The translations under genes were made by a program, and so were the position numbers. From Microglena sp. YARC (Eukaryota; Chlorophyta; Chlorophyceae; Chlamydomonadales; Chlamydomonadaceae), in assembly GCA_022414725.1 (NCBI GenBank), contig CM039462.1, positions 125,175,233 to 125,239,232 of the forward strand: a stretch of DNA of 64,000 nt. Reading direction: 5' to 3'. Within the stretch, counting starts at the first letter, position 1. Every line of letters begins with the position of its first letter. The notes below the pieces were generated by a model. That model saw only the letters and a program-made list of their open reading frames with translations, searched no databases and was not told where the DNA came from. Positions 4,589 to 43,700 of this stretch are shown here, one piece after another.

Positions 4589-4672
4589 CAGGTGTTTGTT
4601 GATATTGACGCCACCATGTTTGAGATGAACCCCTTTACCATAGACCCACAATCAGAGGGATCTTATTCTGAC
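4589..4672 (+). pseudogene. Duplicated acceptor plus 5' part of ACLA exon A
   Basis: CCCTTCCAG at about 4580-4590 is followed by a reading frame encoding [19 protein letters not shown]. This matches the start of the full exon at 7251 except for M-L/F changes. After about 22 residues the similarity is lost (SEG...), and the sequence returns to CACCC repeat without a donor. It is a truncated upstream copy of the exon with its own acceptor, so it could act as a decoy 3' splice site. It lacks the rest of the exon, including the PLDIR and PFGRDM segments. Confidence 0.8.
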
Positions 4673-4736
4673 CTACCTACTCCCACTCCTCACCCACTCC
4701 CCACCCACCCACCTCACCTCCCCACTCACCCACCAT

Positions 4737-7245
4737 AGACATATGCTTGAACAAACACCTCTCACCCACCCACCCACCCACCCAGCTGGCTACCTAATCA
4801 CCCACTCCCCACCCATCCACCTCACCCACCCACCCACCCACCCAGCTGGCTACCTAATCACCCACTCCCCACCCACCCACCTCACCTCCCCACTCACCCC
4901 TAGACATATGCTTGAACAAACACCTCTCACCCACCCACCCACCCAACCCAGCTGGCTATCCTAATCACCCACTCCCCACCCACCCACCTCACCCACCCAC
5001 CCACCCACCCAGCTGGCTACCTAATCACCCACTCCCCACCCACCCACCTCACCTCCCCACTCACCCCTAGACATATGCTTGAACAAACACCTCTCACCCA
5101 CCCACCCACCCACCCAGCTGGCTACCTAATCACCCACTCCCCACCCACCACCCACCTCACCCACCCACCCACCCACCCAGCTGGCTACCTAATCACCCAC
5201 TCCCCACCCACCCACCACCTCACCCCCCACTCACCCCTAGACATATGCTTGAACAACCCCACACCCACCTCACCTCACCCACCCACCCACCCACTCCAGC
5301 TGGCTACCTAATCACCCACTCCCCACCCACCCACCTCACCCACCCACCCACCCACCCACCCAGCTGGCTACCTAATCACCCACTCCCCACCCACCCACCT
5401 CACCCACCCACCCACCCACCCACCACCCACCCAGCGGCTACCTAATCACCCACTCCCCACCCACCCACCCACCCACCCAGCTGGCTACCTAATCACCCAC
5501 TCCCCACCCACCCACCCACTCACCGCACCCAGCTGCTGCTACCTTAATCACCCACTCCCCACCCACCACACCCACCCACCCACCCAGCTGGCTACCTAAT
5601 CACCCACTCCCCACCCACCCACCTCACCCACCCACCCACCCACCCAGCTGGCTACCTAATCACCCACTCCCCACCCACCCACCTCACCCACCCACCCACC
5701 CAGCTGGCTACTAATCACCCACTCCCCACCCACCACCTCACCCACCCACCCAGCTGACTACCTAATCACCCACTCCCCACCCACCCACCTCACCCACCCA
5801 CCCACCCAGCTGGCTACCTAATCACCCACTCCCCACCCACCACCTCACCCACCCACCCACCCAGCTGGCTACCTAATCACCACTCCCCACCCACCCACCC
5901 ACCCACCCAGCTGGCTACCTAATCACCCACTCCCAGCCCACCCACCCAGCTGACCTACCTAATCACCCACTCCCCACCCACCCACCTCACCCACCCACCC
6001 ACCCAGCTGGCTACCTAATCACCCACTCCCCACCCACCCACTCACCCACCCACCCACCCAGCTGGCTACCTAATCACCCACTCCCCACCCACCCACCTCA
6101 CCCACCCAGCTGGCTACCTAATCACCCACTCCCCACCCACCCACCTCACCCACCCACCCACCCAGCTGGCTACCTAATCACCCACTCCCCACCCACCCAC
6201 CCCACCCACCCACCACCCAGCTGGCTACTAATCACCCCACTCCCACCCACCCACCTCACCCACCCAGCTGGCTACCTAATCACCCACTCCCCACCCACCC
6301 CTCACCCACCCCACCTAATCACCCACTCCCCACCCACCCACCCACCCACCCACCCACCAGCTGACTACCTAATCACCACTCCCCACCCACCCACCTCACC
6401 CACCACCCACCCAGCTGGCTACCTACAACATCACCCACTCCCCACCCACCCACCCTCACCCACCCACCCACCCAGCTGGCTACCTAATCACCCACTCCCC
6501 ACCCACCTCCTCACCCACCCACCCAGCTGGCTACCTAATCACCACTCCCCACCCACCCACACCCACCCACCCACCCAGCTGGCTACCTAATCACCCACTC
6601 CCCACCCACCCACCTCACCCACCCACCCACCCACCCAGCTGGCTACCTAATCACCCACTCCCCACCCACCCACCTCACCCACCCACCACCCACCCACCCA
6701 CCCACCCACCCACCCAGCTGGCTACCTAATCACCCACTCCCCACCCCCACCTCACCACCCACCCACCCACTGGCTACCTAATCACCCACTCCACCGACCC
6801 AGCCTCACTGCTACCTAATCACCCACTCCCCACCCACCCACCTCACCCACCCACCCACCCAGCTGGCTACCTAATCACCCACTCCCCACCCACCCACCGC
6901 TGGCTACCTAATCACCCACTCCCCACCCACCCACCTCACCCACCCCCACCCACCCAGCTGGCTACCTAATCAACCCACTCCCCACCCACCCACCTCACCC
7001 ACCCACCCACCCAGCTGGCTACCTAATCACCCTCCCCACCCACCCACTCCCCACCCACCCACCTCACCCACCCACCCACCCAGCTGGCTACCTAATCACC
7101 CACTCCCCACCCACCCACCTCACCCACCCACCCACCTCACCCACCCACCCACCCACCCACCCACCCCACCCACCCACCAGCTGGCTACCTAATCACCCAC
7201 TCCCCACCCACCCACCTCACCTCCCCACTCACGCACCCGCACCCG
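4737..7245 (+). repeat. CAGCTGGCTACCTAATCACC minisatellite array
   Basis: About 2.5 kb of tandem units, each with a CAGCTGGCTACCTAATCACC core, a CACTCCCCACCCACC spacer and CTCACCCACC filler, roughly 50-65 bp apart. From 4737 to about 5270 a higher-order unit of about 170 bp is visible, marked by TAGACATATGCTTGAACAA (four copies). Unit lengths vary through CACC slippage. The array sits between the truncated exon copy at 4589 and the real acceptor at 7250. It is therefore intronic and makes an extremely long C-rich tract before the splice site. Confidence 0.9.
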
Positions 7246-7250
7246 TCTAG

Positions 7251-7436
7251 GTGTTTGTTGACATTGACGCCACCATGTTGGAGATGAACCCCTTCACCAT
7301 TGACCCCAGATCCGGCCGACCCTTCCCCCTGGATATCCGCTTGGAGCTAGATGATACTGCCAGGTTCAGGTCTGCACCCAAGTGGGGCGAGGCTGAGTTC
7401 CCTCTGCCGTTTGGCCGGGACATGACAGCAGCAGAG
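7251..7436 (+). CDS. ACLA: ACLA exon A ([16 protein letters not shown]...)
   Basis: The acceptor is CCCGTCTAG and the donor GCAGAG|GTGGGT. The exon has 62 codons, phase 0 at both ends. It encodes the [10 protein letters not shown] block, the [14 protein letters not shown] segment and [15 protein letters not shown], all close to plant ACLA. In the ATP-grasp-like N-terminal half of the enzyme, EMNPF belongs to the nucleotide-binding region (family knowledge). No frame break is seen. Partial copies lie upstream at 4589 (acceptor side) and downstream at 7514 (donor side). Confidence 0.93.
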
Positions 7437-10400
7437 GTGGGTGGGGGCAGGTAGTGCTGATGTCTGCGTGCGGGCTCGTGGGTTGGGTAGTGGGTTAGGG
7501 CACAATAGTGTGCGCCAGGTTCAGGTCTACACCCAAGTGGGGCGAGGCTGCGTTGCCTCTGCCGTTTGGCAGGGGCATGACAGCAGCAGAGGTGGGTGGG
7601 GGGCAAGTAGTGCTGGTGTCTGCGTGCGGGCTCGTGGGTTGGGTGGGTAGTGGTTGTGTAGGGTGGGTGGGGGTGGTGGCGGGGGGGTGAGCGGAGGGCA
7701 GGCAGTGTTGGGTGAGTAGGGGTTGAGTGGGGTGGGTGGGTGGCGGGCAGTGTTGAGGTATGCGTGCGGGCTTGTTGGTTGGGTGGGTAGGGGTTGAGTA
7801 GGGTCGGTTGGGTTGAGGGTGGGTGGGTGGTGGGCAGTGTTGGGCTATGTGTGCGGGCTATGTGTGCGGGCTTGTGTGTTGGTGGGTAGGGATTGAGTAG
7901 GGTGGGTTGGGGTTGAGGCACAAGTGCGGGGTCGTGGTTTTTGGGAGATGGGTGGGTGGGTGGTGGACAGGGTGGGGTATGTGCGCAGGGTCACAGTGTG
8001 TGTTTGGGTCCGGGTTGTGTGTGTGTGTTGGGTCTGGATGGGGGGTGGGCAATGAGGTGTGGTGATTGGGGGGTAGGGGGGGGGGGGGGGGGAGGAGTAT
8101 TGGTATAGGGGTGTACTAATCTTCGCATCGGCGTACAGCTATACATCAACCAATGCTCCGCTTCCTGCTACATCCTGTACCGCATAGCCTGAATCCTGAA
8201 AACCCAAACCCTGGTCACACTTTCAGGAATACGTTCACTCTTTGGATGAGGCCACGGGAGCTTCTCTCAAGTTCACAGTGCTGAACCCTAAGGGTCGAGT
8301 GTGGCTCATGGTTGCGGGTGGGGGGCCTCAGTCATCTACACGGAACACAGTAGCGACTTGGGCTACTCGCCTGAACTGGGCAACTATGGGGAGTATAGCG
8401 GTGCACCCAACACCAACGAGACGTACCTGTAAGTGTTGGGCCTAGGGTGGGTGGGAATGGGGCTGTGGTAGTGGTGGGATGGGGTGTATGGGTAGCCTCC
8501 GCCATCTACACCGACACTGTCGGCGACTTGGGCCACTCGCCTGAACTGGGCAACTATGGGGAGTATAGCGGTGCACCCAACACCAACGAGACGTACCTAT
8601 AAGTGTTGGGCCTAGGGTGGGTGGGAGGGGGGCTGGGGTAGTGGTGGGATGGGGTGTATGGGTAGCCTTCGCCATCTACACCGACACTGTCGGCAACTTG
8701 GGCTACTCGCCTGAACTGGGCAACTATGGGGAGTATAGAAGTGCACCCAACACCAACGAGACGTTCCTGTTTTTGTTTTGGGCCTAGGGTGGGTGGAGGG
8801 GGGCTGGGGTAGTGGTGGGATGGGGTGTATGGGTAGCCTCCGCCATCTACACCGACACTGTCGGCGACTTGGGCTACTCGCCTGAACTGGGCAACAATGG
8901 GGAGTATAGAAGTGCACCCAACACCAACGAGATGTACCTGTGAGTGGTGGGCGGACTGGCGGAGGGTGGTGGGGGCAGAGGGTGTGGTTGTGGTTGTGGG
9001 GAAGGGGGGGGGGGGAGGGGATGACTACCTATGGGGAGTACAGCGATGCACCCAACACCAACGAGATATACCTGTGAGTGGTGGGCGGACTGGCGGAGGG
9101 TGGTGGGGGACGGAGGGTGTGGTTGTGGTTAGTGGGGAGGGGGGGGGGGGGGGGGGGGGGGGAGGGATGACTACCTATGGGGAGTATAGCGATGCGCCCA
9201 ACACCAACGAGATATACCTGTGAGTGGTGGGCGTAGGGGGGGTGGGAAGGGGGTCGGGTAGGGATGAGATAAGGGGAGCCACTGTTTTTTGTTTCGTGCA
9301 GCGCATCGCAAATTGAGTGACTAGGTGTGACCCCAGTGCGACGTGCTGCCCCCCAACCCCGCGGAACGTGAAAAGCGGAGCCCGTGGGGATCGAGTGGAA
9401 GCTGGGGGGGGGGGGGGGGGCATTTCTGAATAATTTAGCCAGAGCCATGCGTCGCCATGCAGCGACGGACTGGCGACGCGTCGCACAAAAAAAACATTGT
9501 AGGGAGCCTCCGTTATGTTGAGAACGCCTGGTAGGGCGTGGTAGGGCGTGGTATTAAGGGGGCCTCCGTTATATTGAGAACGCCTGGTAGGGCGTGGTAT
9601 TAAGGGGGCCTCCGTTATATTGAGAACGCCTGGTAGGGGCGTGGTATTAAGGGGGCCTCCGTTATATTGAGAACGCCTGGTAGGGCGTGGTATTAAGGGG
9701 GCCTCCGTTATATTGAGAACGCCTGGTAGGGCGTGGTATTAAGGGGGCCTCCGTTATATTGAGAACGCCTGGTAGGGCGTGGTATTAAGGGGCCTCCGTT
9801 ATATTGAGAACGCCTGGTAGGGCGTGGTATTAAGGGGGCCTCCGTTATATTGAGAACGCCTGGTAGGGCGTGGTATTAAGGGGGCCTCCGTTATATTGAG
9901 AACGCCTGGTAGGGCGTGGTATTAAGGGGGCCTCCGTTATATTGAGAACGCCTGGTAGGGCGTGGTATTAAGGGGGCCTCCGTTATATTGAGAACTCCTG
10001 GTAGGGCGTGGTATTAAGGGGCCTCCGTTATATTGAGAACGCCTGGTAGGGCGTGGTATTAAGGGGCCTCCGTTATATTGAGAACGCCTGGTAGGGCGTT
10101 AATTAAGGGGGCCTCCGTTATATTGAGAACGCCTGGTAGGGCGTGGTATTAAGGGGGCCTCCGTTATATTGAGAACGCCTGGTAGGGCGTGGTATTAAGG
10201 GGGCCCCGTCTTTCGGCGGTAGGGAACGAGCTGCTACTTCACCTGGACAAAGCTACCATGGCAGTCAACAGTGACCATTGAACCCCGCGCCTTCATCCTT
10301 TCAACGGTCCGTTGTCATCTACACTGATACTTTAGGTGGACTGGGATCAAGTTCAACTTAGATCCCTTGTTCTCACTGCCGTGAAATAACCTTTATATGT

Positions 10401-10749
10401 ACCCCCCCCCCCCCCACACACACACACACCTAAAAATCACTACCACCACCATCACCACCCACCACCACCACCACCACCAATACCCGACCCCCCCCACCGC
10501 CCCCCCCCAGGTATGCCAAGACTGTGATTGACTGTTGCTCTGCCAGCACTGATGGCCGACCTCGAGCATACCCCCCCCCCCCCCACACCCCCCCCCACAC
10601 ACACACGCACAGACCCACCCCCTCACCCCCCCCACATATCACCCCCACCCCCACCACACACACCCCACCGCCACCACCACCACCAGTTATGCCAAGACTG
10701 TGATTGACTGTTGCTCTGCCAGCACTGATGGCCGACCTCGAGCATACCC

Positions 10750-10780
<31 letters not shown>

Positions 10781-13700
10781 CCACACACACACACACACAC
10801 GCACAGACCACCAACCCACCCCCCACACATCACCCCCACCCCCACCCGACACACCCCACCGCCACCACACCCACCAGGTATGCCAAGACTGTGATTGACT
10901 GTTGCTCTGCCAGCACTGATGGCCGACCTCGAGCATACCCCCCCACCCCCCCCCACCCCCCACACACACAGACCACCAACCCACCCCCCCACACATCACC
11001 CCCCACCCCCACTACACACACCCCACCCCCACCACACACACCCCACCGCCACCACCCCCACCAGGTATGCCAAGACTGTGATTGACTGTTGCACTGCCAG
11101 CGCTGATGGCCGACCTCGAGCTTTGCTCATCGGTGGTGGTATTGCGAACTTCACTGATGTGGCCGCCACATTCAAGGTGCGCCAAGTTGAACACGTGAAA
11201 CTTGAGTGAACGTGATAGCAGTGGTGGTTGGTGGCGTGGTGGGTGTGGTGTGGTGGGGGGATGGTGTTGCTCATCGGTGGTGGTATTGCGAACTTCACTA
11301 ATGTTGCCGCCACATTCAAGGTGCGCCAAGTTGAACACGTGAAACTTGAGTGAACGTGGTAGCAGTGGTGGTTGGTGGCGTGGTGGGCGTGGTGTGGTGG
11401 GGGGATGGTGTTGCTCATCGGTGGTAGTATTGAGAACTTCACTAATGTTGCCGCCACATTCAAGGTGCGCCAAGTTGAATGTTGAAGACTTGAGTGAACA
11501 TGGTAGCAGTGGTGGTTGGTGGGGGTTGGTGGTGGTATTGCAAACGTCACTGATGTGGCCGCCAGCAAGTGGCAATGTGGCCCCCATTTAAGGTGGGCCC
11601 AGTTGAATGTTGAAGACTTGAGTGAACATGACAGGAGTGGTGGTTGGTGTGTGGTGGGGGGAGGGGAGGGGGGAGGGTGTTGCTGGTTGGTGGTGTGGTG
11701 GGGGGAGGGGAGGGGGAGGGTGTTTGCTGGTTGGTGCTGTGTGGGGGAGGGGAGGGGGGAGGGTGTTGCTGGTTGGTGGTGTGGTGGGGGAGGGAGGGGG
11801 AGGGTGTTTGCTGGTTGGTGGTGTGGTGGGGGGGGGGGAGGGGGGAGGGTGTTGCTGGTTGGTGGTGGTATTGCGAACTTCACTGACGTGGCCGCAACAT
11901 TCAAGGTGCGCCAAGTTGAATGTTGAAGACTTGAGTGAACATGGCAGCAGTGGTGATTGCAATGCTACCTGCCTGTGGTGGATTGTCAGGTTGGGTGTCA
12001 GAAGGTTGATTTGTTGGTGGAGCCTCCTCTTCAAGGGGGTGGGAGCCCCCAGGGTTACCCATTTGTCCGTCCGACCGACCGACTGACTGACCGTCTGACC
12101 GCGCTGAAGCCTGACACGTCAGCCAACGGTCTCGTAACTAACTCGCTCCTGTTGCCACCTGTTGCTCCGTCGCGATCACTCTCAGCCAATTTGTAGCGTC
12201 GCATGCGACGCTGCATAGAACTTGTTGAAAATATACCTGCACCCAAGCCAAGCGTTTTAAGTCAGCGTTTAAGAGCTTACACTGCTTGCTCAATGCTGCC
12301 TGTCTGTAGGGCAGGGTACTTCAAATGGCCAAATTGGCCAGTGCTTTAGCGCACTTGAAATAAAAAAAACTGCGCTTTGTAGTGCAAAAAGCGCAAAACT
12401 TGCTTGCAGCGCCCACAAGGGGTTGCAAAAACTGCGCTTAAATCGCAGAGGGGGTCAGAAAATCAAGCGCTCAAAAGCGCAAAAGCGCGCGCTTTGAATT
12501 TCCCTGCTGTCGGGGTTATCAGGTCGGGTTTCAGAAGGTTAATTTTAAACATGTATACCTACATCCAAGCCAGTGATTTTTTAAGGAATTGGGCATAAAC
12601 ATTAAGTATATGGCAGCCATATACCCAGGTGTAGACTTTGGTGGGGCATAAACATTAAGTATACGGCAGCCATTCCAAGCCAAGCGCTTGGTGTTTGCGT
12701 GTAAGAGCTTTAAAGTGCTTGCTGCAATGCTGCCTATTTTGCCTGTAGGGGTTATGAGAGTGAGTTTAACAAGGTATATTTTGTGCATGAGTTGGTTGAA
12801 ATTGAACGGTATCCAAGCCAGGTGCTCGGAAGTTTGCGAGTAAGAGCTTACGAATGGTTGCCACAAAGCCGCCTGTTTTAAGGTGATTTTGTTGTACAAA
12901 CTGGACAGTTGGCTGCTCGGGCCGCTGGATTGGCATTGTTTTGTGTAATGTAATCCTGCCTGGCTTGGCTTGGCTTGGCATTGTTTTGTGTAACGCACTC
13001 CCTTCTGGCTTGGCTTGGCATTGTGTTATGTACTCCTGCCAGGCTTGGCTTGGCTTGGCATTGTGTTATGTACTCCTGCCTGGCTTGGCTTGGCTTGGCA
13101 TTGTGTTAAGTACTCCTGCCTGGCCTTTTCTGATTTTGTGTAACGTACTCCTGCCTGGCTTGGCTTGGCTTGGAATTGTGTTATGTACTCCTGCCTGGCT
13201 TGGCTTGGCATTGTGTTATGTACTCCTGTCCGGCTTGGCTTGGCATTGTGTTATGTACTCCTGCCTGGCTTGGCTTGGCATTGTTTTGCTGATTTTGTGT
13301 AACATACTCCTGCCTGGCTTGGCTTGGCTTGGCATTGTGTAACGTACTCCTGCTTGGCTTGGCTTGGCATTGTTTTCTAAGTTTGTGTAACTTACTCCTG
13401 TTTGTCTTTCTGGATGTCTGTAGGGGATTATCTCGGCACTGAAGGAGCGATCAGAAGCATTGAAAGCTGCCAAGGTCAACATCTTTGTGCGAAGGTGAGC
13501 CAGGCGACCAAGTTTTTCTGTAAATGTATAGCAAAAGTTCTGAATTTCGTACCTCTGCTCTGTTTTTGTGTGCGAGGCGTTGCAAATTGAGCGACTCGGT
13601 GTGACCCCTGAACCTTGCGGAGCGCGAAGCGCGGAGCCTGGGGGGCTTTCTGGGGTGGTTGAAATGGTATGCGTGTTAGATACAGGTGGGGGGCTGCTCA

Positions 13701-13849
13701 AGTGAAGGGAAGAGGTAGGGTAAGGGGTGTACGTTTCTGTGTTTGTGGGTGAGGAGGGGGGAGGGAGGGGGGGGGAAAGACAGTGTGTGTCAAGGAATGG
13801 GGATGGGGGCACGAAGATTTAGGGCAAATTAGGGGATCATGTAGGTCCT

Positions 13850-13880
<31 letters not shown>

Positions 13881-15982
13881 TAGAGGGAGAGTAAGGAAGG
13901 GAAGGGGGCATGCGTAATGTATTTCAGTTATTATGGGGGGAATATCTCGACGGTGTGTGTACATACAAGGGTATTACCCATTCTGTATCCCAGACCAGGA
14001 CCCAGGACCAGGGTGGGGGGGGGCCAACGGCCACATGGGCTACCGTACAAGTACATTTATTCATACATTCATACATATCATAACAGTTCACCTTCATATG
14101 GTAGCTCAATCATCATTGCATTCTGTCGCATACAGGGGACTGTAACATAACCAGAACCCAGGGCCTGGGTGGGATGGGTGGAGGGTGGCCACCGGCCACA
14201 CGGGCAATGTACTAGTACATACATACATACATACATACATACAGTACATACATACATTCATACATACATACATACATACATACATACATACATACATTCA
14301 TACATACATACATACATACATACATACATACATACATACATTCATACATACATGCATGCATACATACATACATACATACATTCATACATACATACATACA
14401 TACATACATACATACATACATACATACATACCATAATGGTCAATAGGGGTAGTGGTGCATGTTCGTTTGGTCGAGGGTCGGTATCTCCCACCGACCCTAA
14501 GTGTGCCTACTTTATTTTAGGAAGGGCAACGCCATTCAAACTGAATCCTCCGGGTCGCTGGTTTGTGTCGGGAGACCCACCTCCTGGGGTGAAAGTCCTC
14601 TCACAACTTACAAAAAAATATTCACCCTGCCATGGTGGCTCAATCATTATTGCTTTCTGTCGAGGGACCGGCATATCATATGATTTTGACCAAAGGCGAG
14701 TATGGTATCATATGATATCATGCAAATTGCATCATATGATATTGTATATAACTGGTAACTGTAGCCTAGTCTGACTGCCAGCATCATATGATATCAAATT
14801 GCCATTCCCTACTTCTACCACATCCAGGGGAGGTCCGAACTACGACAAGGGTCTGGAGCTGATGCGTGCCGTGGGTGTTGAGATCGACATACCAATCAAG
14901 GTCAGTGTTGCGGGATGAGCCGGTGTAGCATGCTGAGGTCCTGTGGGGCTTGCAGCTGTGTTTGTGTGGCCGTGCATATGTGTTAGCGTGGTGTGGTGGT
15001 GGTGTCTGTGGGTGTGGGTGGGTGGGTGGGGGGGGTGGGGGGGGTCAGGGATGTGATGAGATGAACATACTAATCAAGTTTAGTGTTGCGGGATGAGCCG
15101 GTGTAGCTTGCTGAGGTCCTGTGGGGCTTGCAGCTGTGTTTGTGTGGCTGTGCATATGTGTATCGTGGTGTGGTGGTGGTGTCTGTGGGTGTGGGTGGGT
15201 GGGTGGGTGGGGGTCAGGGATGTGATGAGATGAACATACCAATCAAGTTCAGTGTTGCGTGATGAGCCGGTGTAGCTTGCTGAGGTCCTGTGGGGCTTGC
15301 AGCTGTGTTTGTGTGGATGTGCATATGTGTTAGCGTGGTGGGGTGGTGGTGTCTGTGGTGTGGTGGTGGTGGTGGGGTGTGGGTGGGTGGGTGGGTGGGT
15401 GGGTGGTGGGGGGGTCAGGGATGTGATGAGATGAACATACCAATCAAGTTTAGTGTTGCGGGATGAGCCGGTGTAGCATGCTGAGGTCCTGTGGGGCTTG
15501 CAGCTGTGTTTGTGTGGCTGTGCGTATGTGTTAGCGTGGTGTGTGGTGGTGTCTGTGGGTGTGGCTGTGGGTGTGTGTGTGGGGGGGGGGTCAGGGATGT
15601 GCTGAGATGAACATACCAATCAAGGTCAGTGTTGCGTGATGAGCCGGTGTAGCATGCTGAGGTCCTGTGGGGCTTGCAGCTGTGTTTGTGTGCCTGTGCA
15701 TATGTGTTTGTGTGGTGTGGTGGTGGTCAAGTGGTGGTGTCTGTGGGATTGGAACAGGGGGGGGGGGGGGGGAGGGGGGGGGGGGGGATGAAATCGTCCA
15801 ACCAATCAAGGTCAATGCAGTGTGGCCATGTTCCCTGATAAGAACCCCCTAAATCTGCCCCCCCCCCCCCCCCCCCCAGTCTAACTATAAAGGGGTGGCC
15901 CCCCCAGCCGGCCCCCCCAAGCCTAACTATAAAGGGGTGGACCCCCCAGCCGGCCCCCCAAGCCTAACTATAAAGGGGTGCC

Positions 15983-16028
<46 letters not shown>

Positions 16029-19256: not shown

Positions 19257-19402
19257 TTCAATCACCTCTGTAGCGCGAACTCAGGCCTCCGTCGGTAAAC
19301 GATTTGGGTCCAGTTCAGCAGTGCTTGCTTTCGATTTAGCCCCTCCTGATATTTAGGATGCGCAAGTCCTCTTAGCCTATTTGGCTAACCCTGGACTGTA
19401 AC
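19257..19402 (+). repeat. Dispersed repeat family A in the ACLA 3' flank
   Basis: It runs from GTAGCGCGAACTCAGGCCTC through GTCGGTAAACG, CAGTTCAGCAGTGCTTG and CAAGTCCTCTTAGCCTATTT to CCCTGGACTGTAAC. Related copies lie at 40493-40625 (plus), 42768-42905 (minus) and 32560-32690 (minus, diverged), with an end fragment at 2905. Because it begins at the stop codon, it may supply the 3' UTR or polyadenylation region. Confidence 0.8.
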
Positions 19403-20390
19403 AGAGAAAAACATTTGAATTGTTCATGTAACTGCCAAAGACGGTGAGCAGCCAAATTGCTGGCTGGAGCAGTAAATAAGTACATGGTTTTGCCTTAGTG
19501 GGCGTGAGGTTGAGGGGGCCAGCCCGTTTGCTTGCACTGGGGGCTGGACTGTAACATACACACATTGGTAGTCCGGACAAGCCTGGGTTCTTTGCCTACA
19601 AACATGGACTCTATCTCGGACTCGATCACGTGCATGGGGTTGGAAGAGCAGGGTTGTCCAAAGCCTTCCGGGAGTATACGTGGGCCACGCACATGCCCCC
19701 CCCCTCTCCCCCTCTACACGCACACACAAACAATGTGTAAAACACGTGCGTCCCTATCAAAATGTGCGTGTAAACCTGCGGAAACCAGGGGAAACACGCA
19801 CGTGTCAGTCAAAATATAAACAAAACTGTCAACATTCTGTCCACACGCGCATCCCAGTGAAAGTGTGCGTTCACACGATCTCACCCCCCTGGAACGAGTT
19901 GAGCCACCTTGGTGAAGAGCTGCTAGTGGGAGGGCTGGCCGGCCTGTCTGTTGGATATACTTGGACTTGAACTTGGCTTCATATCTCCAGCCAGCAATTT
20001 GGCTGCTCGCCGTCTTCGGCAGTCAAGACAAATTGTCAGGAATATGTAAACGCGAACAAATCACTTTATATTTCTTCATTTCTCACCATTTTCCATTATT
20101 ATCTTTTTCTTCTTCTGAAGTATAAAGAACAATGCAAAAAACTAATTATATCCGGGAGGAGAAAAAAGATCAGTCCCCCCATCATATGCCTAAAATACCT
20201 GGGGGGCTGCGACCCTCCTGGAAACCTAGTTAAATGGAAACCTTAGATGTGAATCTGTAACTAATCAAACCCGTTATATATTAGTAGGATGTGGAGATCC
20301 TCGATTGCTCGAATCCTCGAATTAGACGTTTTCTAAAAAAAAAAAACTTTGTTTGAAGTCTTTATTAGTTTTACATCTAGTTAGCCTCTT
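19403..20390. other. Intergenic with family B fragments, no gene recognised
   Basis: Family B, the block CAGCAATTTGGCTGCTCGCC GTCTTCGGCAGT, occurs reversed at about 19430-19472 and forward at about 19990-20025. This block recurs at 24155 (minus), 25285, 46930, 47740 (minus) and, diverged, at 22800 and 46010. A 62-bp segment (GGAAACCTTAGATGTGAATC ...ATATATTAGTAGGAT) at about 20233-20292 is repeated at about 20625-20684, flanking the next SINE. No coding sequence is seen. Confidence 0.65.
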
Positions 20391-20394
20391 TAGC

Positions 20395-20600
20395 GATTAC
20401 AATGGTCTAGTGGCAGACAAGATTGCTAAGGAACGAAGAGTCGGGGGGGTTCGACTCCCCCTTCGGTCGCTCTTGGCGTTGCAGGTCGTCGTTAACCGCG
20501 ATGGTAGCTTGTCCAGTTGAGGTAGGAGACCGCTCCCTACCGCGTACGACGGGTCTCCTTAACACCACGCCCCACCAGGCGTCATCATTACCTTTACATC
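20395..20600 (+). mobile_element. tRNA-derived SINE, best-preserved head
   Basis: The A box is AATGGTCTAGTGGCAGAC and the B box GGGGTTCGACTCCCCC. The sequence continues with TTCGGTCGCTCTTGGCGTTG, CAGGTCGTCGTTAACCGCGA, TGGTAGCTTGTCCAGTTGAG and CGCTCCCTACCGCGTACGAC to the tail CCTTAACACCACGCCCCACC AGGCG. The head resembles a tRNA with a TGGTCTAGTGG A box. The extra body and the dispersed homologues (46510-46800 and 61385-61615, both minus) make it a SINE rather than a working tRNA gene. Confidence 0.82.
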
Positions 20601-21758: not shown

Positions 21759-22178
21759 ATGAGCGGTAGGGGACATCAAGATGAATACAGCAACGCCTAT
21801 GGCGCCCCAACGAGGGGGGGTCGTGGTGGTGGAGGAGGAAGAGGGGCGGGCCGCAGGGGAGGAGGCCAGGGAGGCCAGAGCCAAGGCCAAGGCCAGCAGT
21901 TCAACCAGCAATCTGGGCAACAGCATTATCAGAATCAGGCACCTCAGCAAGGTAACTGGAATGAGCCTGTGTACCAGGTGCCAAACCCACAGTTCCAACA
22001 ACATGCACTTCTCAGGGGTAATTGGGTTGCAGATGATCAAAGAATCAGGCAGCCAAGCAAGCTTCAGAGGCTCTGAGCAGAGCACTGGGCAATGGGAATG
22101 GTGGACGTGGATATAACGGCCGAGGCGGTGGACGTGGCAGGGGCAACCAGGTCCCGGCAAAGCAACATTATGAGTCAG
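21759..22178 (+). CDS. Helicase exon 1: RGG/Q-rich N-terminus, probable frame break
   Basis: The ATG at 21759 (CGCAAGATGAG) starts [20 protein letters not shown], then a G/R-rich stretch and a Q/N-rich stretch ([15 protein letters not shown]). After about 22018 this frame runs to a TGA at 22074. A frame two bases away then gives [20 protein letters not shown], followed by [15 protein letters not shown]. It ends ...HYES at a donor GAGTCAG|GTGATA. Either a short intron or an indel near 22045 joins the two parts. No strong splice sites are visible, so I favour an indel. Low-complexity RGG segments typically bind RNA or help form granules (general knowledge). Confidence 0.7.
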
Positions 22179-31600: not shown

Positions 31601-34600
31601 GGGTGGTGTGGGGGTTGGTGGATGGGAGGGGGTGTGAGGGTGTGGTGGAGGTGTGTGGTGGTGGTGGTGGTGAGGTGGGTGGGGTGGGGTGGGTGGTGGT
31701 GAGGTGGGTGGGTGTGGGTGGCGTGGTGAGGGGGTGGGTGTGGGGTGGTGGTGGTGAGGTGGGTGGGTGGGGGTGGTTGGGTGGCTGTGTGAGGTGTGGG
31801 GTGGTTGGTGTGATGGGGGTGGGTGTGGGTGGTGTTGGTGAGTGTGGGTGGGGTGTGTGGGTGGTGTTGAGGTGAGGTGGGTTGGGGTGTGGGGTGGTGT
31901 TGGTGGGTGGGTGGGTGTGGGGTGTGTTGGTGAGGTGGTGGGTGTGGGTGGTGTGGTGAGGTGGGTGGGTGGGGTGGGGTGGTGGTGGTGTGGGGGTGGG
32001 GTGGTGGTGGTGAGGTGGGTGGGTGGGGTGGGGTGGTGAGTGGGTGGGGTGGGTTGTGAGGCTGGGTGTGTGGGGTGGGTGTGGTGAAGGTGGTGTGGGG
32101 TTGGGGTGGTGTGGGGAGGTGGTGGGTATGGGGTGGTGCGGTGAGTGGGTAGGGTGGGGGTGGTGGTGGTGAAGGTGGGTTGGGTGTGGGGTGGTGGTGG
32201 AGGGTGGGGGTGGGTGTGGGGTGTGGTGAGGGTGGGGTGGTGGTGGTGAGGTGGGTGGCTGTGGTGGTGGTGTGAGGTTGGGTGGGTGGGTGGTGGTGGT
32301 GTGGAGGTGGGTGGGTGTGGGTGGTGGGTGTGGGGTGGTGTTGGGAGGCGAGAAAATTGTACGTAAATGCTTGCCGCACTGGAAAAGTCGAGGTAGCGAA
32401 ATTACAATGTCACGGCTGTTGATTCCAAATCAACCGCTGAATTGCTACATGCCTTGCTGGTGCACTCCCCATGATTCGTTTTGGGGGGTAGTGGTGGTGG
32501 TGTCTGGATCTGGACAACACATAGATTTAGTTGGAACAGAGTGCAAGCAAGATGTGTGTATCGCTGTTACAGTCACCCGGGGGGTAGCCAAATAGGCTAA
32601 AAGGACTCTGCTCAAGCCACGGTATCAGGAGGGGCGGTAGAGGTACGGGAAAAACACCGATGGTAAGTACTGAACCCCCTGGTTGGCGGATGGTATGTGA
32701 GTATGTATTTACAGTCACAGGGGGCAGGTCCCCCCCCCGCCCACCACCCCACACGAGTATAGGTATCTTTCCACGTGGTGGCGGTTCACACAGCCCACAA
32801 CACACCCCACACACCACCACTCCACTCCACACCACACAGCCACCCGCCTTCTCTGTGTAAGTGCAAGACATTGCTGCTTCATAATCCCTGTGATTAAAAG
32901 GCTGACCCCCCCCACCCCCCCACACACCCACCACCACAGCAGACCACACAGCGGCTACACAGCACACACACTACACACCACATCACACACCCACCACCCC
33001 ACCCCTCAAGCTCGGCATCACACAGCCACACACCACCCGCCTTCTCTGTGTAGGCAAGAGCATTGCCTTCATAACCCTCACTTGTGATTTAAAAAGGCTG
33101 ACCCCCCCACACCGGGTGGCCACCACCACCACTACACCAACACATACACAGACTACACCACACACACACACACACACACACAGCACCCGACCAACACACC
33201 CCACCCCCACTCCACTCCAACTCAAAGACCACACCCACCGCCTTTTCTGTGTAGGCAAGACATTCCTTCAATGATTCATGTCATAGCAAAGGCTGACCCC
33301 CACCCCACCTCACCACCCACCAACCACACACACAACACACCCCCCACACCCCCCTACCTCCACCATCCCCCCCACACACACACTCCCCCCCTCCCACCAC
33401 ACACACCCCACCCGCCTTCTCTATGCATGCAAAACCATTGCCTCATGATCCTGGACCCCCCTCCCCCCCACCCCCCCCACCCACCCCACACAAACACACC
33501 TGCCTTCGCTGTGTAAGGCAAGACATTGCCTTCATGATTCCATGTGATAGAATGGCTGACCCCCCCCCCCCCCCACACACACACACCCCACTCCACTCCA
33601 CACACACACACACACACCACTCTGCCTTCTCAACTATGTAGGCAAGACCATTGCCTTCATGATTCATGTGATAAGAAAGGCGCAGACCCCCCCCCCCCCC
33701 CCCCCACATTCACCACTCCACTCCACACACACACACACAAAATACCGCCTTCTCGCTTGTTGTAGGCAGAGACCATTTGCCTTCATGATTCATGTGGATA
33801 GAATGGCTGACCCCCCGCCCCCCCCCCCACCCACCCCCCCCCACACCACCACACACACCTCCACACACACACACACACAGCTACACCCGCTTTCTCTGTG
33901 GGTAGGCAAGACCATTGCCTTCATAATTCAATGTGATAGAAAGGCCGACCTCACCCCTCCCCCCCCCTCCCCCCCTTACACACACATTGTCATGAACACC
34001 ACAACCTTCTCTGTGTAGCGCAAGACCATTGCATTCATGATTCATGTGATAGAAAGGATGACCCCCCCCCCCCCCCCACACACACACACACACAGCACAC
34101 ACATTCACAGCACTCCACTCCACACACACACATACACCCACCCGCCTTCGCTGTGTAGGCAAGACCATTGCCTTCCTTCATGATTTCATCGTGATGAGAA
34201 TGGCTGAACCCCCCCGCACACTCACACACACACACACATACACACACACCATCACACTCCACACACACAACGCAGACACACCACCGCGCCTTCTCTGTGT
34301 AGGCAAAGACCATTGCCTTCATGATTCAATGTGAATAGAAAGGAATGACCCCCCCCCCCCCCCACACACACACACACACACACACAACACTTCTCTGTGT
34401 AGGCAAGACATTGCATTCATTGATTTCATCTGATAGAAAGGATGACCCCCCCCAACAGCCCACAACACACCTATCGCACACCAACACAATTCACCCACTC
34501 CACATACCACACACACCACACCAACCGCCTTCCTCTGTGTAGGCAAGACGCATTGCATTCATGATTCATGTGATAGAATAGGATGACCCCCCCCCCGAGA

Positions 34601-37600
34601 CCCCTCCCCCCCCCACACCAGCCACACATTCACACTCCACTCCACACACACATTGAACTACACATTCCGCTTTCTCTGTGTAGGCAAGACCATATGGCCT
34701 TCTCATGATTCCTGTGATAGAAGAGGCGACCCCCCCACCCCACCTCACACCCCCCCCACACACACACACACCTTCTCTGTGTAGGCAAGACCATTGCCTT
34801 CATGATTCAATGTGATACGAGAAGGATGACCCTCCCCCCCCCCCCCCCCCTCCCGCCCCACAAGCACACACACCACACACACACCACCTCCACTCCACAC
34901 CACACACCCCACCCGCCTTCTCTGTGTAGGCAAAGACTATTGCCTTCATGATTCAGTGATAGAAAGGCTAACCCCCCCCGCCTCCCCTCCCCCCCCCTAC
35001 ACCACCACCGAAAACACACACCTTGCTCTGTGTAGCCAAAGACCAAATGCCTGTTCATGATCCCTGACCATGCCTTCATGATCCCTGTGACCCCCCCCGA
35101 CACACAACTCCATGCACTCCACCACACCACCCACCGGCCTTCTCTGTGTAGGCAAGACCATTGCCTTCATGATCCCTGTGATCGAAAGGCTGACCACCAA
35201 TCCTTAGCCGCTCGCGGCCCAAGTGGGCGCCATCGTGCTCAGTCCACGTGAGCTGGCCAACCAGATTTATGCAGAGTGCGTCAAGCTACTCAAATTCCAT
35301 CCTTTCAGTGCCAGGTGAGTAGGTGTCCAATCTATTTCGCCAGTGCAATCTGTTCACCAGTCTAATCTAGTTCACGAGAGCTGTTGTTTATATACCGGCG
35401 CCTCCTGAGCTGGCCAAACAGGTAAATGCAGAGTGCGTCAAGCTACTTCAATTCCATCCTCTCAGTGCCCAAATGAGTAGCTACCTACTCTGTGGCAGGC
35501 AGTGCAATTCTGTTCACCAGTGCAATCTGTTCCAGCAGTGCAATCTGTTCACCAGGGCAATCTGTTCACCAGGGCAATCTGTGCACCAGTGCATCTGTGC
35601 ACCAGTGCAATTCTGTTTTCACGCAGTCTAATTGTTCAGCAGTGCAAAAAATCTGTTCAAAACAGTGCAAATCTGTTCACACCAGTGCAATCCGTTCACC
35701 AGTGCAATCTGTCACCAGTTGCAGTGCAATCTGTTCAAAGCCAAGGGCAAATCTGTTCACCAGGGCAATCTGTGGCACCAGTGCAATCTGTGCACCAGGG
35801 CAATCTGTTCACCACCAGTCTAATCTGGGTTCAGGGCAATCTGTTTCCTTTTTTGTTTCAGCAGTGCAATCTGTTAGCCAGTGCAATCTGTTCACCAGTG
35901 CAAATCTGGTTTTTTCCACCAGGCATCTGTTTCATGCAATGTTTCAGCAAGTGCAATCTTGTTCACCAGGGCAATCTGTTCACAGGGCAATCTGTTCACC
36001 AGTGCAATCTGTTCAGCAGTGCAATCTGTTCACCAGGGCGATCTGTTCACCAGTGCAATCTGTTCAGCAGTGCAATCTGTTCACCAGTGCAATCTGTTCA
36101 CCAGTGCAATCTGTTCACCAGTGCAATCTGTTCAGCAGTGCAATCTGTTTCAGTCAGTGCAATCTCTGTTTTCACTGTTCAGTGCAATCTGTGCACCAGG
36201 GCAATCTGTGCACCAGGGCATCTGTGCACCAGGGCAATCTGTTCACCAGTGCAATTCTGTTTTCAGCAGTGCAATCTGTTCACCAGGGCAAAATCTGTTC
36301 ACCAGGGCAATCTGTGCAGCAGTGCAATCTGTTCAGCAGTGCAATCTGTGCACTGACCAGGGCAATCTGTTTCACCAGGGCAATCTGTTCAACAGTGCAA
36401 TCTGTTTCCACCAGGGCAATCTGTTCACCAGGGCAATCTGTTCACCAGTGCAATCTGTGCAAACTTTGTTCAGCAGTGGCAATCTGTTCACCAGTGCAAT
36501 CTGTTCACCAGTGCAATCTGTTCAGCAGTGCAATCTGTTCAGCAGTGCAATCTGTTCAGCAGTGCAAATCTGTTCACCAGTGGTTCAGCAGGCAATCTGT
36601 TCACCAGTGCAATCTGTTCACCAGTGGCAATCTGTTCACCAGTGCAATCTGTTCACGCAGTGGCAAAATCTGTTCAGCAGTGCAATCTGTTCAGCAGTGC
36701 AATCTGTTCACCAGTGCAATCTGTGCACCAGGGCAATCTGTGCACCAGGGCAATCTGTGCACCAGGGCAATCTGTTCACCAGTGTAATCTGTTCAGCAGT
36801 GCAATCTGTTCACCAGGGCAATCTGTTCACCAGGGCAATCTGTGCACCAGTGCAATCTGTTCAGCAGTGCAATCTGTTCACCAGGGCAATCTGTTCACCA
36901 GGGCAATCTGTTCACCAGGGCAATCTGTTCACCAGGGCAATCTGTGCACCAGGGCAATCTGTTCACCAGTGCAATCTGTTCAACAGTGCAATCTGTTCAC
37001 CAGGGCAATCTGTTCACCAGGGCAATCTGTTCAGCAGTGCAATCTGTTCAGCAGTGCAATCTGTTCAGCAGTGCAATCTGTTCACCAGTGCAATCTGTTC
37101 ACCAGTGCAATCTGTTCACCAGTGCAATCTGTTCAGCAGTGCAATCTGTTCACCAGGGCAATCTGTTCACCAGGGCAATCTGTTCACCAGGGCAATCTGT
37201 TCACCAGTGCAATCTGTTCACCAGTGCAATCTGTTCACCAGTGCAATCTGTTCACCAGTGCAATCTGTTCACCAGTGCAATCTGTTCACCAGTGCAATCT
37301 GTTCACCAGTGCAATCTGTTCAGCAGTGCAATCTGTTCACCAGTGAAATCTGTTCACCAGTGAAATCTTTTCACCAATACTTGTTGTAATATACCGGCGC
37401 CCGTGAGGTGGCCAACCATATATATGCAGAGTGCGTCATGCTACTCAAATTATATCCTCTGAATGCCCCTTACCAGCAGGTTTTGCTTGGAGGCACCATC
37501 ATCAACAGCAAGGGAAATAAATGACCCCCCAAACACAACACCCAACACACCCACCCAACACACTTATCCCTCCTGTCTCCTTTCCACCCCACTTCCGCAG

Positions 37601-39404
37601 GTTGTGGTTGGAGGCACCAACATCAACGCCGAGGGCAAGAAAATGAACACACGCACGCACACCTGCCACATGGTGATACCCCGCGCCCTCCCCCCCCCTT
37701 CCCCCCCCAACACACACGCACCCTGCCCTCCCCACTCCTCCGTACCCCTACCTCTATCCCATCCTCTTATCACCTCCTCTCACCCTGCCATCCCCTTACC
37801 TCCAGGTCGTGGTTGGAGGCACCAACATCAACGTCGAGGGCAAGAAATGACCTCCGAACACCTGCCACATGATGCTACCCCCCACCCCCGCCTCTACTCC
37901 CATCCCTCTTATCACCCTCCTCTCACCCTCCATCCCCTTACCTCCAGGTCGTGGTTGGAGGCACCAACATCAACGTCGAGGGCAAGAAATGACCTCCGAA
38001 CACCTGCCACATGATGCTACCCCCACCCCACCCCCGCCTCTACTCCCATCCTCTTATCACCCCTCTCACCCTGCCATCCCTTACCTCAGGTCGTGGTTGG
38101 AGGCACCAACATCAACGTCGAGGGCAAGAAAATGACTCCCGAACACCTGCACATGATGCTACCCCCCCCCACCCACCCCCGCCTCTACTCCCATCCCTCT
38201 TATCACCCTCCTCTCACCCTGCCATCCCCTTACCTCCAGGTCGTGGTTGGAGGCACCAACATCACGTCGAGGGCAAAGAAAATGACCTCCCGAACACCTG
38301 CCACATGATGCTACCCCCCACCCACCCCCGCCTCTACTCCCATCCTCTTATCACCCTCCTCTCACCCTGCCCCCCTTACCTCCAGGCTGTGGTTGGAGGC
38401 ACCAACATCAACGTCGAGGGCAAGAAAATGAGCACACACACTCCTGTCACATGGTTATACCCCGCGCCTCGCCCATGCCTTCCCCCCCCCACACCCACCC
38501 ACCCACACACACACTCACACCCTGCCCCTCCCCACCCAACCTCTACTCACTCTCCTCACATCCCTCTTATCACCCTCCTCTCACCCTGCCCCCCCTTACC
38601 TCCAGGTTGTGGTTGGAGGCACCAACATCAACGCCGAGGGCAAGAAAATGAGCGCTCGCACTCCTGATATTTTGGTGGGCACCCCCGGCCGTCTGTTGGA
38701 CCACATGGTGACCTCAGGACTGAAGGAGCATGTCCAAGACCTGCGCCTCTTTGTCGCTGATGAGGCAGACAGCTTGCTGGACATGGGATTCAGGTGAGTG
38801 TGTGTGTGTGTGTCAGGGGGTGGGGGTGGGGGGGGAGGTGAGTAGATATGAACTTAGTAGCGGTAGAGTTTGCTGCAAGGCTAGGATCCCGTGGGTTAAG
38901 ACAGGCTAAAAACACGCCCAGGTGACCCACCACCCACCACTACCACCACCATTATCCCCACCCCACCAACGCCACCACCACCATTCACCAACCACCACCA
39001 TTCACCACCACCACCACCACCACACCATTTCACCACCACCACCCACCACCACCACTGCCACCACCAACCACCACCACACCCCACACCACCACCACCCACC
39101 ACCACCACCATTCACCACCACCACCACCACCACCGACACCACACCACCCACACCACACACCACCATCACCACCACCCATGTGTGAGTCCCTCTCATCTTC
39201 CAAACCATCCTTCCCATTCAGGCAACCCCTCACCTTGTCCCCTCACCTCACCCTCACCTCAGCTTCAGCTTCTACCTCCGCCTGGGCCAGGCACATCAAA
39301 GAAACTATCCTTGGCCATTTGGCAACCCCTCCCCCTCCCCCCCCTCCACACAGGCCTACGGGAGAAAAGATCTTTGCCATCTTGCCCCCACACCTTCTAC
39401 CCCC

Positions 39405-39438
<34 letters not shown>

Positions 39439-40239
39439 CCTACCCTAGAGAAGATCTTTGCCTTCTTGCCTTCTCGTGAGAAGCGTCAAGCCCTCCTCTT
39501 CTCAGCCACGTTCCCTCAAGACGTCAAGTCCCTTGCCAATTATGCCCTGCGTCAGCCCTATGAGATGGTGGACTGTGTTGGAGAGCAGACCGGCACCAAC
39601 GTGCAGGTGCGCCTTGTGTATGGGGTGTGGGGAGTGTGTGGGGTGTGGGGAGTGCGCCTTGTGTGTGGTGTGGGAGTGTGTATGGAGTGGGGAGTATGTG
39701 GGGAGTGCGCCTTGTGTGGGGTGTGGGAGTGTGTATGGAGTGGGGAGTGTGTATGGTGTGGGGAGTGTGTGGGGTGTGGGGCGTGCGCCTTGTGTGTATG
39801 GTGGGGGGAGTGTGTGTGGCGTGGGGAGTGTGTGGGGCGTGGGAGTGTGGGGCCTGGGGAGAGCGCCTTGTGTGTGGTGTGGGGAGTGTGTGGGGCGTGG
39901 GGAGAGCGCCTTGTGTGTGGTGTGGGGAGTGTGTGTGGCGTGGGGAGTGTGTGGGGTGTGGGGAGAGCGCCTTGTGTGTGGTGTGGGGAGTGTGTGTGGC
40001 GTGGGGAGAGCGCCTTGTGTGTGGTGCGGGGAGTGTGTGTGGAGTGGAGGGTAGTAGGTGCGCCTTGTAGGGTGCTGTAACTTAACCTTGCTAGTCAAGT
40101 CCTTTGCTAACTATGCACTGCGTCAGCCTTATGAGATGGTCTACTCTGTTGGAGAGCAGACCGGCACCAACGTGCAGGTGCGCCTTGTGTGGTGTGTGTG
40201 GGGAGTGTGGGTGTGTGTATGGTGTGGGGAGTGTGTGTG

Positions 40240-40270
<31 letters not shown>

Positions 40271-40692
40271 GGGGGGGAGTGTGTGTGGAGTGAAGGGTGG
40301 TAGGTGCGCCTTGTATGGTGCTGTAACTAAACCCTGCTATTAAAATCCCTTGCTAACCATGCACTGCGACAGCCTTATGAGATGGTGGACTGTGGGGGAG
40401 AGCAGACCGGCATCAACGTACAGGAGTGCCTGAAGCAATGTTTCGTGGGCAGTTACGCTTTTGAAGCAACCTATAATATTGTAAAGTAAATTATCACTGT
40501 AGCACGAACTCAGGGCCCCCGTCGGTTAAACGGTTGTTTGGGGCTCAGTTCATCAGTGCTTGTTTTTTAAGCCCTTTCTATACAGGCAAGTCCCTTTAGC
40601 CTATTTGGCCTACCCCTGGACTGTAATATACATACAATATATAATATATATAATATAATATATATATAAATATTATAAAATATAATAAAATA

Positions 40693-40728
<36 letters not shown>

Positions 40729-43700
40729 ATATAATATATAATATGTAGCTCTGCGGTGCGGGTGTGGGTGGTGCATATGCAGTACTGGTATTAAGTGGCC
40801 AGGAGGTAGGGGGGAGAGACCTGCGGGTCAGCAGGGTCAGCATGAGGCACAAATATGAGTGCAAACCGAACATGGGGACTGAACATAGGGGCAGACTCAT
40901 GAGGCTCAAATGTGAGTGCAAACCGAACACAGGGACTGAACACAGGGGCAGACTCATCAGGCTCAAATAGGAGTGCAAACCGAACATGGGGACTGAGCAT
41001 AGGGGCAGACTCATCAGGCTCAAATGTGAGTGCAAACCGAACACAGGGACTGAACACAGGGAGAGACATGAGCGGATCAGCAGCAGGGATCGACATGAGC
41101 TGGCCTACCCCTGGACTGTAACATACATACAACCTGTAATGACTAAATGTAGTACCCTGGAAACAAGAGCGTCAGTGCTTATCTTCAACAGCTGAAAACT
41201 CTTCCACCACAACCAACCACAACCAACCACAACCAACCAAACACAACAACCCTAGACGCTGAAGCCCACTCGTCATATGAGCCTCAAGAACCAACCCCAA
41301 CCCAACACAAATTCCATATTTGTCTCAAACTCTTCCACCACAACCAACCCAACCAACCCCAAACGTTGTAGCCCACTCGTCATATGAGCCTCAAGTACCA
41401 ACCCCAACCCTAGAGAAGATTCCATGTTTGTCTCAAACTCTTCCACCATTACCAACCCAACCAACCCTAAACGCTGACGCCTACTTGTCAAAGGGGCTTC
41501 AAGTACCACCCCCAACCCTAGAGAAGATTCCATGTTTGGCGCAAACTCTCCCACTATAACCAACCCCAACCAACCCAACCAACCCCAACCAACCCCAAAC
41601 GCTGAAGCCTACCTGTCATATATGAGCCCCAAGTATTTTATGTTGTCCTAGCCCCCCCCCACACACACCAACCACCACACACCACACCACCACGCGCGCG
41701 CGTGATACTCCCTCATGCACAGAAGTCAAGACTGCCCAGTGGGGGATGCTTCATGTTGTACTAGCCCCACCACCAATCACCACCACCACGCGCGCGCGTG
41801 ATACTCCCTCATGCACAGAAGTCAAGACTGCCCAGTGGGGGATGCTTCATGTTGTACTAGCCCCCACCACCACCACCACCACCACGCGCGCGCGTGATAC
41901 TCCCTCATGCACAGAAGTCAAGACTGCCCAGTGGGGGATGCTTCATGTTGTACTAGCCCCACACACACACCACCACCACCACGCGTGCGCGTGATACTCC
42001 CTCATGCACAGAAGTCAAAGACTGCCCAGTGGGGGATGCTTCATGTTGTACTAGCCCCACCACCACCACCACCACCACGCGCGCGCGTGATACTCCCTCA
42101 TGCACAGAAGTCAAGACTGCCCAGTGGGGGATGCTTCATGTTGTACTAGCCCCCACCACCACCACCACCACCACCACGCGCGCGCGTGATACTCCCTCAT
42201 GCACAGAAGCCAAGGCTGCCCAGTGGGGGATGCTCTATGTTGTCCTAGCTTTAACGCATGAGCCTTAAGTACGGTCCTGCAACATCAATCTAGCAGTATA
42301 TCCAGTGTTTGTGCATTCCTCATTATCCAGTGTTTTTGCATTCCTCATTATCCAGCGTTTTTGCATTCCTCATTATCCAGCAGTATATCCAGTGTTTTTG
42401 CATTCCTCATTATCTCCATACAAGTAGGGAAGGGCAACATGGCAGCATATGATATCATGTCATCATATGATGCCGGCAGTCACACTCAACTTAGGTCAAC
42501 ATCATATGATATGCCTATCCCTACATAAAAGTAGGGAACGGCAAGTAATATAAGTGTTTGAAAACCTATTATTAGCTAATATTATTATTATGTCACAATA
42601 ATATTCGTTTTTTTTAAATACATTCGAATTTCTGGTGAGAGGGCTCGTCTGAATAATATTATACACTATTTTATAATACTATTTATTCACCAATATTGTA
42701 TAACATAGCCGACCCCTACATATAAGTCATTCAATACTAAGCTGTAGTGCAACACATGTATGTTTGTTACAGTCCAGGGGTAGGCCAAATAGGCTCTAGG
42801 GACTTGCCCAACCGTGACAGGAAGGGCTAAAAAGAAAAGGCATTGATGAACTGAACCCCAAACAACCGTTTTACCAATGGGTGACCTGCGTTTCTGCTAC
42901 AGTGATAATTTAATTATATAATTTAAAATAAATCTTCATCCCACATGAGATGATAATTTAATTCTGCTATTCTTAGTGCAGCACGAGCAGCTCATCCACT
43001 CCATGTACTGCCTCATCACAGGTCGCCCAGTACAAGGCTGTAGTGCCTCACGAGCAGCTCATCCACACCATGTACTGTTCCCTCACAGGTCATCCAGTAC
43101 AAGGCTGTAGTGCCTCACAAGCAGCTCATCCATTCCTTGTACTGTTCCCTCACAGGTCATCCAGTACAAGGCTGTAGTGCCTCAAGAGCAGCTCATCCAC
43201 ACCATGTACTGTTCCCTCACAGGTCATCCAGTACAAGGCTGTAGTGCCTCAAGAGCAGCTCATCCAGTACAAGGCTGTAGTGCCTCACAAGCAGCTCATC
43301 CACTTCATTTACTGCTCCATTATGGACCACACCAGGGAGGAGCCCAACTTCAAAATCATCGTCTTCTTCCCTACGGCACGCGGCACCCAGCTGTGTTCAG
43401 AGATCTTTAACGTGCAGCTCATCCACTCCATGTACTGCCCCCTCACAGGTCATCCAGTACAAGGCTGTAGTGCCTCACGATCAGCTCATCCACTCCATGT
43501 ACTGCTCCATTATGGACCACATCAGGGAGGAGCCCAACTTCAAAATTATCGTCTTCTTCCCTACAGCACGCGGCACCCAGCTGTGTTCTGAGATCTTTAA
43601 CGCAGTGAAGGTTCCCGTGCTAGAGATGCATAGCCGCAAGAGCCAGGCACACAGAACAAAGATGAGCGATGAGTTCAGGAACAGCAGTGGCGTCATTATG

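Follow-up and report, generated by a model that had tools for sequence, protein, structure and literature searches.

Tandem copies of exon edges at splice junctions of two adjacent genes in the green alga Microglena sp. YARC

A 64,000-nucleotide stretch of the Microglena sp. YARC assembly (GenBank GCA_022414725.1, contig CM039462.1, positions 125,175,233 to 125,239,232 of the forward strand) was analysed over its full length, hereafter the window. The locus is a tandem-repeat-rich stretch of green-alga nuclear genome carrying two genes, ACLA and a DEAD-box helicase, both on the + strand. Copies made of a partial exon, a splice site and the adjoining intron flank were found at 13/22 splice junctions, comprising 6/12 acceptors and 7/10 donors. 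Junctions were placed by tblastn homology to reference proteins (P0121 and P0127 for ACLA; P0001 and P0004 for the helicase) and by reading of splice signals, and are labelled A (acceptor) or D (donor) followed by the exon-end position in the window. Of 23 candidates, ten were moved by 1-7 bases so that GT/AG and reading frame agreed; the donor at 21951 was dropped. GT or AG is present at 21/22 of the set junctions; the remaining acceptor, at 39435, was re-placed at 39438 (AG at 39436-39437). Helicase exons upstream of 26143, the ends of which were not fixed by homology, lie outside this set.

P0121 matched the window with 100% identity over three ACLA stretches (tblastn), one of which extends into the intron past 14900, and therefore derives from this species or one very close to it. 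P0001 is 72% identical to the joined helicase query and looks like an intact relative. The named protein relatives among the best 120 matches listed were Chlamydomonas eustigma, Haematococcus lacustris, Dunaliella salina and Gonium pectorale, the nearest named relatives of the two proteins in that set being Chlamydomonadales. A record labelled Brassica cretica ranked second for the helicase among the matches listed. One of the protein comparisons was restricted to the 8000 candidates with the most words in common. No credible exon for ACLA residues 1-190 was found within the window (best E 0.78); the opening exons of the gene are therefore probably located upstream of the window.

Under a strict test, a 60-base probe centred on the junction was required to have a same-strand copy within 3.5 kb that crosses the centre by at least 10 bases. 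This was passed by 11/22 junctions (A7251, A11065, A35152, A38606, A43449, D7436, D8428, D11176, D14900, D26741 and D39606). D35314 and A39438 were counted on inspection and by exon-end 40-mers (scores 61 and 41, respectively), the latter narrowly failing the strict test with a score of 49 and seven intron bases. A looser scan marks the same 13 junctions. No junction-crossing copy was found within 3.5 kb at A8227, A13424, A14828, A19188, A26143, A45170, D13494, D38793 or D43760. An earlier reading of the letters alone (the sequence-only reading) had listed 12 sets of coordinates, all of which contain same-strand exon-edge copies with a splice site or its remnant; the donor array of D8428 (8489-9233) was missing from that list and brings the total to 13. 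However, the accompanying claim that nearly every junction is amplified goes too far, as nine of the 22 are without copies.

Fifty-two extra copies were listed by hand, 33 of them acceptor-side and 19 donor-side. Each is one-sided, combining an exon edge and intron flank with a single splice site or what is left of it; the sole exception is a fused copy at 37402-37520. At the hand-aligned base AG is kept in 28/33 acceptor copies and GT in 12/19 donor copies; with a shift of 1-2 bases by eye these counts become 32/33 and 13/19. Since most of them retain AG, most acceptor copies are potential decoys. The proposal of one splice site per copy was thus borne out for the one-sided anatomy, but not for those copies that have lost the dinucleotide, nor for the fused copy. 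In the latter, a donor-side piece of exon abuts an acceptor-side one, with a single open frame running across the joint for ~40 residues. The 5′ region of the helicase may contain one more donor-side copy (about 22128-22444, near 22178-22329; ~69% identity), which stands outside the count, its exon not being fixed by homology.

All exons and copies described here lie on the + strand. In ACLA, the exon at 7251-7436 (100% identity to P0121 residues 192-253) has one acceptor-side copy of its start at 4592-4660 and one donor-side copy of its end at 7514-7600. A CACC-repeat-rich stretch of 4.2 kb (2992-7238) lies before an ACLA acceptor. The exon at 8227-8428, which has one frame break in the window letters such that two frames are needed, is amplified at its donor end, with five extra copies at 8489-9233. 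The left half of the exon at 11065-11176 is amplified upstream, as three extra acceptor-side copies with a C/CA-rich intron flank (10500-10937), and its right half downstream, as four extra donor-side copies with a G-rich flank (11267-11960), 3/4 of which pass the strict test. The exon at 14828-14900 is amplified at its donor end and not at its acceptor; 4/5 of its extra donor-side copies (15053-15830) pass the strict test, and GT has become TT in three. Neither end of the exon at 13424-13494 has copies, and the last ACLA exon (19188-19256) is likewise without them.

The helicase exon at 26143-26741 has one copy of its donor end, at 26837-26993, and none of its acceptor. A 5.4 kb GGTG-type tract (26945-32344) lies after a helicase donor. 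A 2.3 kb array precedes the exon at 35152-35314, the start of which has 17 extra acceptor-side copies with indel-rich letters at 32827-35110; its end has a donor-side copy at 35406-35480. Upstream of the exon at 38606-38793, amplified at its acceptor end, are six acceptor-side copies (37571-38420), or seven counting the fused copy. The exon at 39438-39606 has copies of both ends, one on the acceptor side (39354-39395) and two on the donor side (40094-40431), of which 1/2 passes the strict test. The start of the exon at 43449-43760 has four extra 67-base acceptor-side copies within 42975-43448, together with a longer partial exon copy at 43256-43411. The last helicase exon (45170-45715) is without copies.

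The duplicated exon blocks lie at an exon end in 13/13 cases, 12 of them unbroken to the junction and the 26741 block with a single 10-base scan gap; no interior or whole-exon duplicates were found among the 13. By position, the duplicated share was 15-17/22 at 100-300 bases into introns, 10-17/22 in the last 100 bases, 12-13/22 between the junction and exon base 30, and 10/17 at base 40. Deep in the exon it was one of 5-6 at 100-140 bases and 0/5 at 150. Randomly placed units of 70-190 bases would be expected to fall in the interior in 20-61% of cases. Such confinement to exon ends would be the expected outcome of selection on the mRNA.

The copies are far above what is expected by chance in random sequence. 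However, this excess depends on the null and is not detectable against the adjacent non-coding DNA. Among 60-mers whose 3-mer entropy was 4.5 or more, those with a copy within 3.5 kb numbered 53/196 in exon interiors, 36/75 in the junction zone, 655/1354 in introns and 982/2356 elsewhere; the unfiltered counts were 53/223, 49/92, 2220/3147 and 1300/2926, respectively. A joint circular shift of the 22 junctions through 4.5-45.7 kb gave a mean of 13.5 (standard deviation 2.5) compared to the observed 13, which was reached by 66% of shifts, and this was unchanged with the acceptor at 39438. In addition, 40-mers at exon ends were compared with non-exon DNA filtered to the same minimum entropy, at nine settings of threshold and reach; the non-exon set spanned 4.5-45.7 kb, including the 19.3-26.1 kb interval between the end of ACLA and the first fixed helicase exon. 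Exon ends were duplicated in 10-12/22 over the nine settings (binomial p = 0.39-0.83 against non-exon), or in 9, 10 and 10 of 22 at the three settings of score 46 when acceptor 39438 replaced 39435. The duplicated share was 0.39-0.47 in non-exon DNA (n = 1348), 0.36-0.53 in the window flanks (n = 1393) and 0.08-0.10 in exon interiors lying over 60 bases from any junction (n = 157). At score 36 within 3.5 kb, for instance, the values were 12/22 for exon ends, 0.47 of 1348 for non-exon DNA, 0.52 of 1393 for flanks and 0.10 of 157 for exon interiors. No junction excess over non-coding DNA was detectable in the window by 60-mers, joint shift or 40-mers, at the low power given by 22 junctions. Junction-targeted amplification was rejected on these three tests, the nearest approach to it being p = 0.09 in a high-complexity subset. 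The suggestion that duplication is special to junctions is therefore not supported within the window, where junctions are not detectably more often duplicated than non-coding DNA, again with the low power of 22 junctions.

Tandem copies spanning exon boundaries have been described in amphioxus as "mirages" (PMC3087553, PMC3902484); the passages of PMC3902484 add PGBD5 and mention troponin C among the mirage cases. From its sequence the algal anatomy fits that of mirages; arrays of this kind have thus been described before. In both, the tandem unit crosses the exon/intron boundary (here at 13/22 junctions), 5′ and 3′ exon boundaries are both affected (here 6/12 acceptors and 7/10 donors), and the copies are imperfect, many keeping splice signals. 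In amphioxus mirages the edge copies are reported to be less homogenised than the interior ones. A similar pattern is seen in the A38606 array, where variants are common to interior copies, those at 37806 and 37948 having no substitution between them, and the edge copy at 37601 retains the letters of the true exon in its exon part; this pattern is unclear in the other arrays. Mirage units measure 10-160 bases in the cases given and the algal units 67 to ~200 bases; BflGb6 copies are 81-100% identical, to which the 3.6-6.8 substitutions per 100 in five short algal junction arrays correspond. The alga also differs in that 13/22 junctions of two adjacent genes are affected, a density above that in the passages on amphioxus, and in its setting, where a copy lies nearby for ~40-50% of the non-coding 40-mers that pass the complexity filter. 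Moreover, undisturbed splicing and length polymorphism are reported for amphioxus mirages (PMC3087553, PMC3902484), whereas the alga is known from the sequence of one haplotype alone.

Other described systems share part of this anatomy. In the Rogers model, as outlined in PMC3087553 and with a potato case in PMC4974935, introns are gained when an exon segment containing AGGT is duplicated in tandem; it too involves exon sequence and splice sites, but in the alga the copied junction and the lengthening intron were already there, and no new intron is seen. In the green algae C. reinhardtii and V. carteri, intronic tandem repeats are enriched near intron-exon junctions (PMC3887541). These resemble the present arrays in their concentration toward intron ends and their GT/AC motifs, but in the passages concerned they are described inside introns, not as units with exon edges. 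Human genes in segmental duplications have internal tandem repeats across exon-intron boundaries (PMC2812944); there, the passages describe alternative or new introns in recent paralogs. Among the literature matches listed, which left most subscription journals uncovered, no mirages were found in algae, or anywhere outside amphioxus bar the human boundary repeats.

We consider it likely that minisatellite-type duplication across non-coding DNA, combined with a selective filter, produced these mirage-type arrays at exon ends without any targeting of junctions. Tandem duplication of ~70-200 base units would strike non-coding DNA throughout, by slippage or misaligned exchange, perhaps initiated in G-rich and C-rich tracts. 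Units beginning in an intron would often reach some tens of bases into the exon, and a duplicate with an exon edge and one splice site would become intron sequence. The copy attached to the rest of the exon would be the spliced one and the others silent. A silent edge copy, being tolerated, would be free to expand and drift as a minisatellite; copies of exon interiors or whole exons would alter the mRNA and be removed. Under exon definition a splice site needs a partner site of the same exon, and the decoy copies would be ignored as they are without one. The sequence itself shows the copies, their one-sidedness, the lack of a detectable junction excess over non-coding DNA and the depletion in exon interiors; what we infer is that slippage is the mutational process, that purifying selection acts as the filter, that splicing is correct and that decoys are passed over. 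By eye, the acceptor copies of A11065, A35152, A38606 and A39438 pass from exon into a C-rich or CA-rich tract; the transition is less clear at A7251, and the A43449 unit is mostly exon-derived. A G-rich tract is visible at the origin of D8428, D11176 and D14900, with none clear at D7436, D26741, D35314 or D39606. A slippage-type origin is plausible because 4/6 acceptor arrays and 3/7 donor arrays adjoin such tracts, at which slippage or template switching could plausibly occur. The intron-growth process put forward in the sequence-only reading therefore survives in part: the units straddle junctions on both sides and lengthen introns, and slippage is plausible, but a process aimed specifically at them is not supported.

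That growth is instead seeded at the junctions seems to us unlikely. Here, the splice-site tracts (pyrimidine-rich at the acceptor, G-rich at the donor) would start repeated duplication of the edge, such that junctions would be hot spots and introns would lengthen conveyor-like from their ends. The exit of 4/6 acceptor arrays into C-rich or CA-rich tracts is in keeping with this, as is the skew of the 300-base intron flanks, in which C exceeds G at 10/12 acceptors and G exceeds C at 7/10 donors (p = 0.012), and the junction enrichment of repeats in the passages on C. reinhardtii and V. carteri points the same way. Several further points weigh against untargeted duplication. Similarity to the exon tends to be higher in nearby copies than in distant ones (concordance p = 0.08, seven arrays), a gradient which counts since junction-seeded growth would give it too; however, it is reversed at D14900 and flat at A35152, which was excluded from the seven for indel noise (rho 0.04). 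High-complexity junction centres are duplicated in 11/18 cases compared to 0.40 of 1820 pool positions (p = 0.09), and a modest preference for junctions may still exist with only 22 of them. Correct splicing of these genes is an assumption, and the evidence base is one window with two genes. Against seeding at junctions stand the absence of a detectable junction excess over non-coding DNA in the window and the 9/22 junctions without copies. We give little credence to a functional role, in which the repeats would aid splicing by pairing the G-rich donor end of an intron with its C-rich acceptor end, or would supply regulated alternative splice sites. Such a role would suit the opposite skew of the intron ends and the AG or GT kept in most copies, but across 10 introns the donor and acceptor ends of the same intron were no more complementary than shuffled pairs (mean -126.4 vs -128.9 kcal/mol, p = 0.62).

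It is similarly improbable that the copies were created or multiplied by unpolished or misjoined long reads, although parts of the window invite this explanation. Ratios of indels to substitutions were computed against a reference unit per array. The 2.3 kb A35152 array has a ratio of 1.67 (15 copies matched), and an array at 50000-58800, with 59 matches to a 103-base unit, has a ratio of 4.23, which suggests poorly polished long reads or very fast slippage; indel-rich noise of the kind in these two arrays is typical of such reads. Other ratios were 3.96 for a 197-base array, 2.67, at very low divergence, for a 46-base array and 0.53 for a 98-base array. Moreover, the frame break of ACLA exon 8227 is absent from P0121, and in the helicase exons within 26143-35314 the frame is broken near motif I, a stop lies in frame at 35205-35207 and, relative to P0001, one residue of the SPTRELA stretch is missing. 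These helicase defects may be residual errors or signs of a decaying gene or paralog. In contrast, the five short junction arrays D8428, A11065, A38606, D11176 and A43449 differ mostly by substitutions (ratio 0-0.62; 3.6-6.8 substitutions per 100), and shared variants and unequal units would not be expected from stutter. On these ratios, neither the letters nor the number of copies in the long arrays can therefore be relied on, but the short junction arrays look genuine.

The introns and flanks also contain dispersed short repeats, several of them as inverted pairs (40484-40636 / 42757-42915 / 19254-19403; 12014-12226 / 24242-24462 / 49935-50169; 14516-14618 / 16863-16965), which on their letters look like small mobile elements. 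By eye, tRNA-like stretches with a GTTCGAATCC-type box were seen at 17160-17210, 17390-17460, 18910-18990 and 20395-20475 and are possibly tRNA-derived short elements. No tRNA genes (ARAGORN) and no Rfam families at gathering score were found in the window.

These data suggest that exon-edge mirages are not confined to amphioxus, and that tandem duplication, if pervasive and combined with a selective filter, suffices to make junctions look specially amplified. If the density seen here holds genome-wide, the alga would offer many natural decoy arrays for studying how an acceptor is chosen among near-equals, as well as a view of introns growing by swallowing exon-edge copies. A bolder and rather doubtful extension is that mirage-type arrays occur at approximately half of exon ends genome-wide and are a main engine of intron lengthening, the true acceptor being told apart from as many as 17 near-identical ones by belonging to the one exon with a splice site at each end. 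If true, this genome would be a natural mass test of exon definition.

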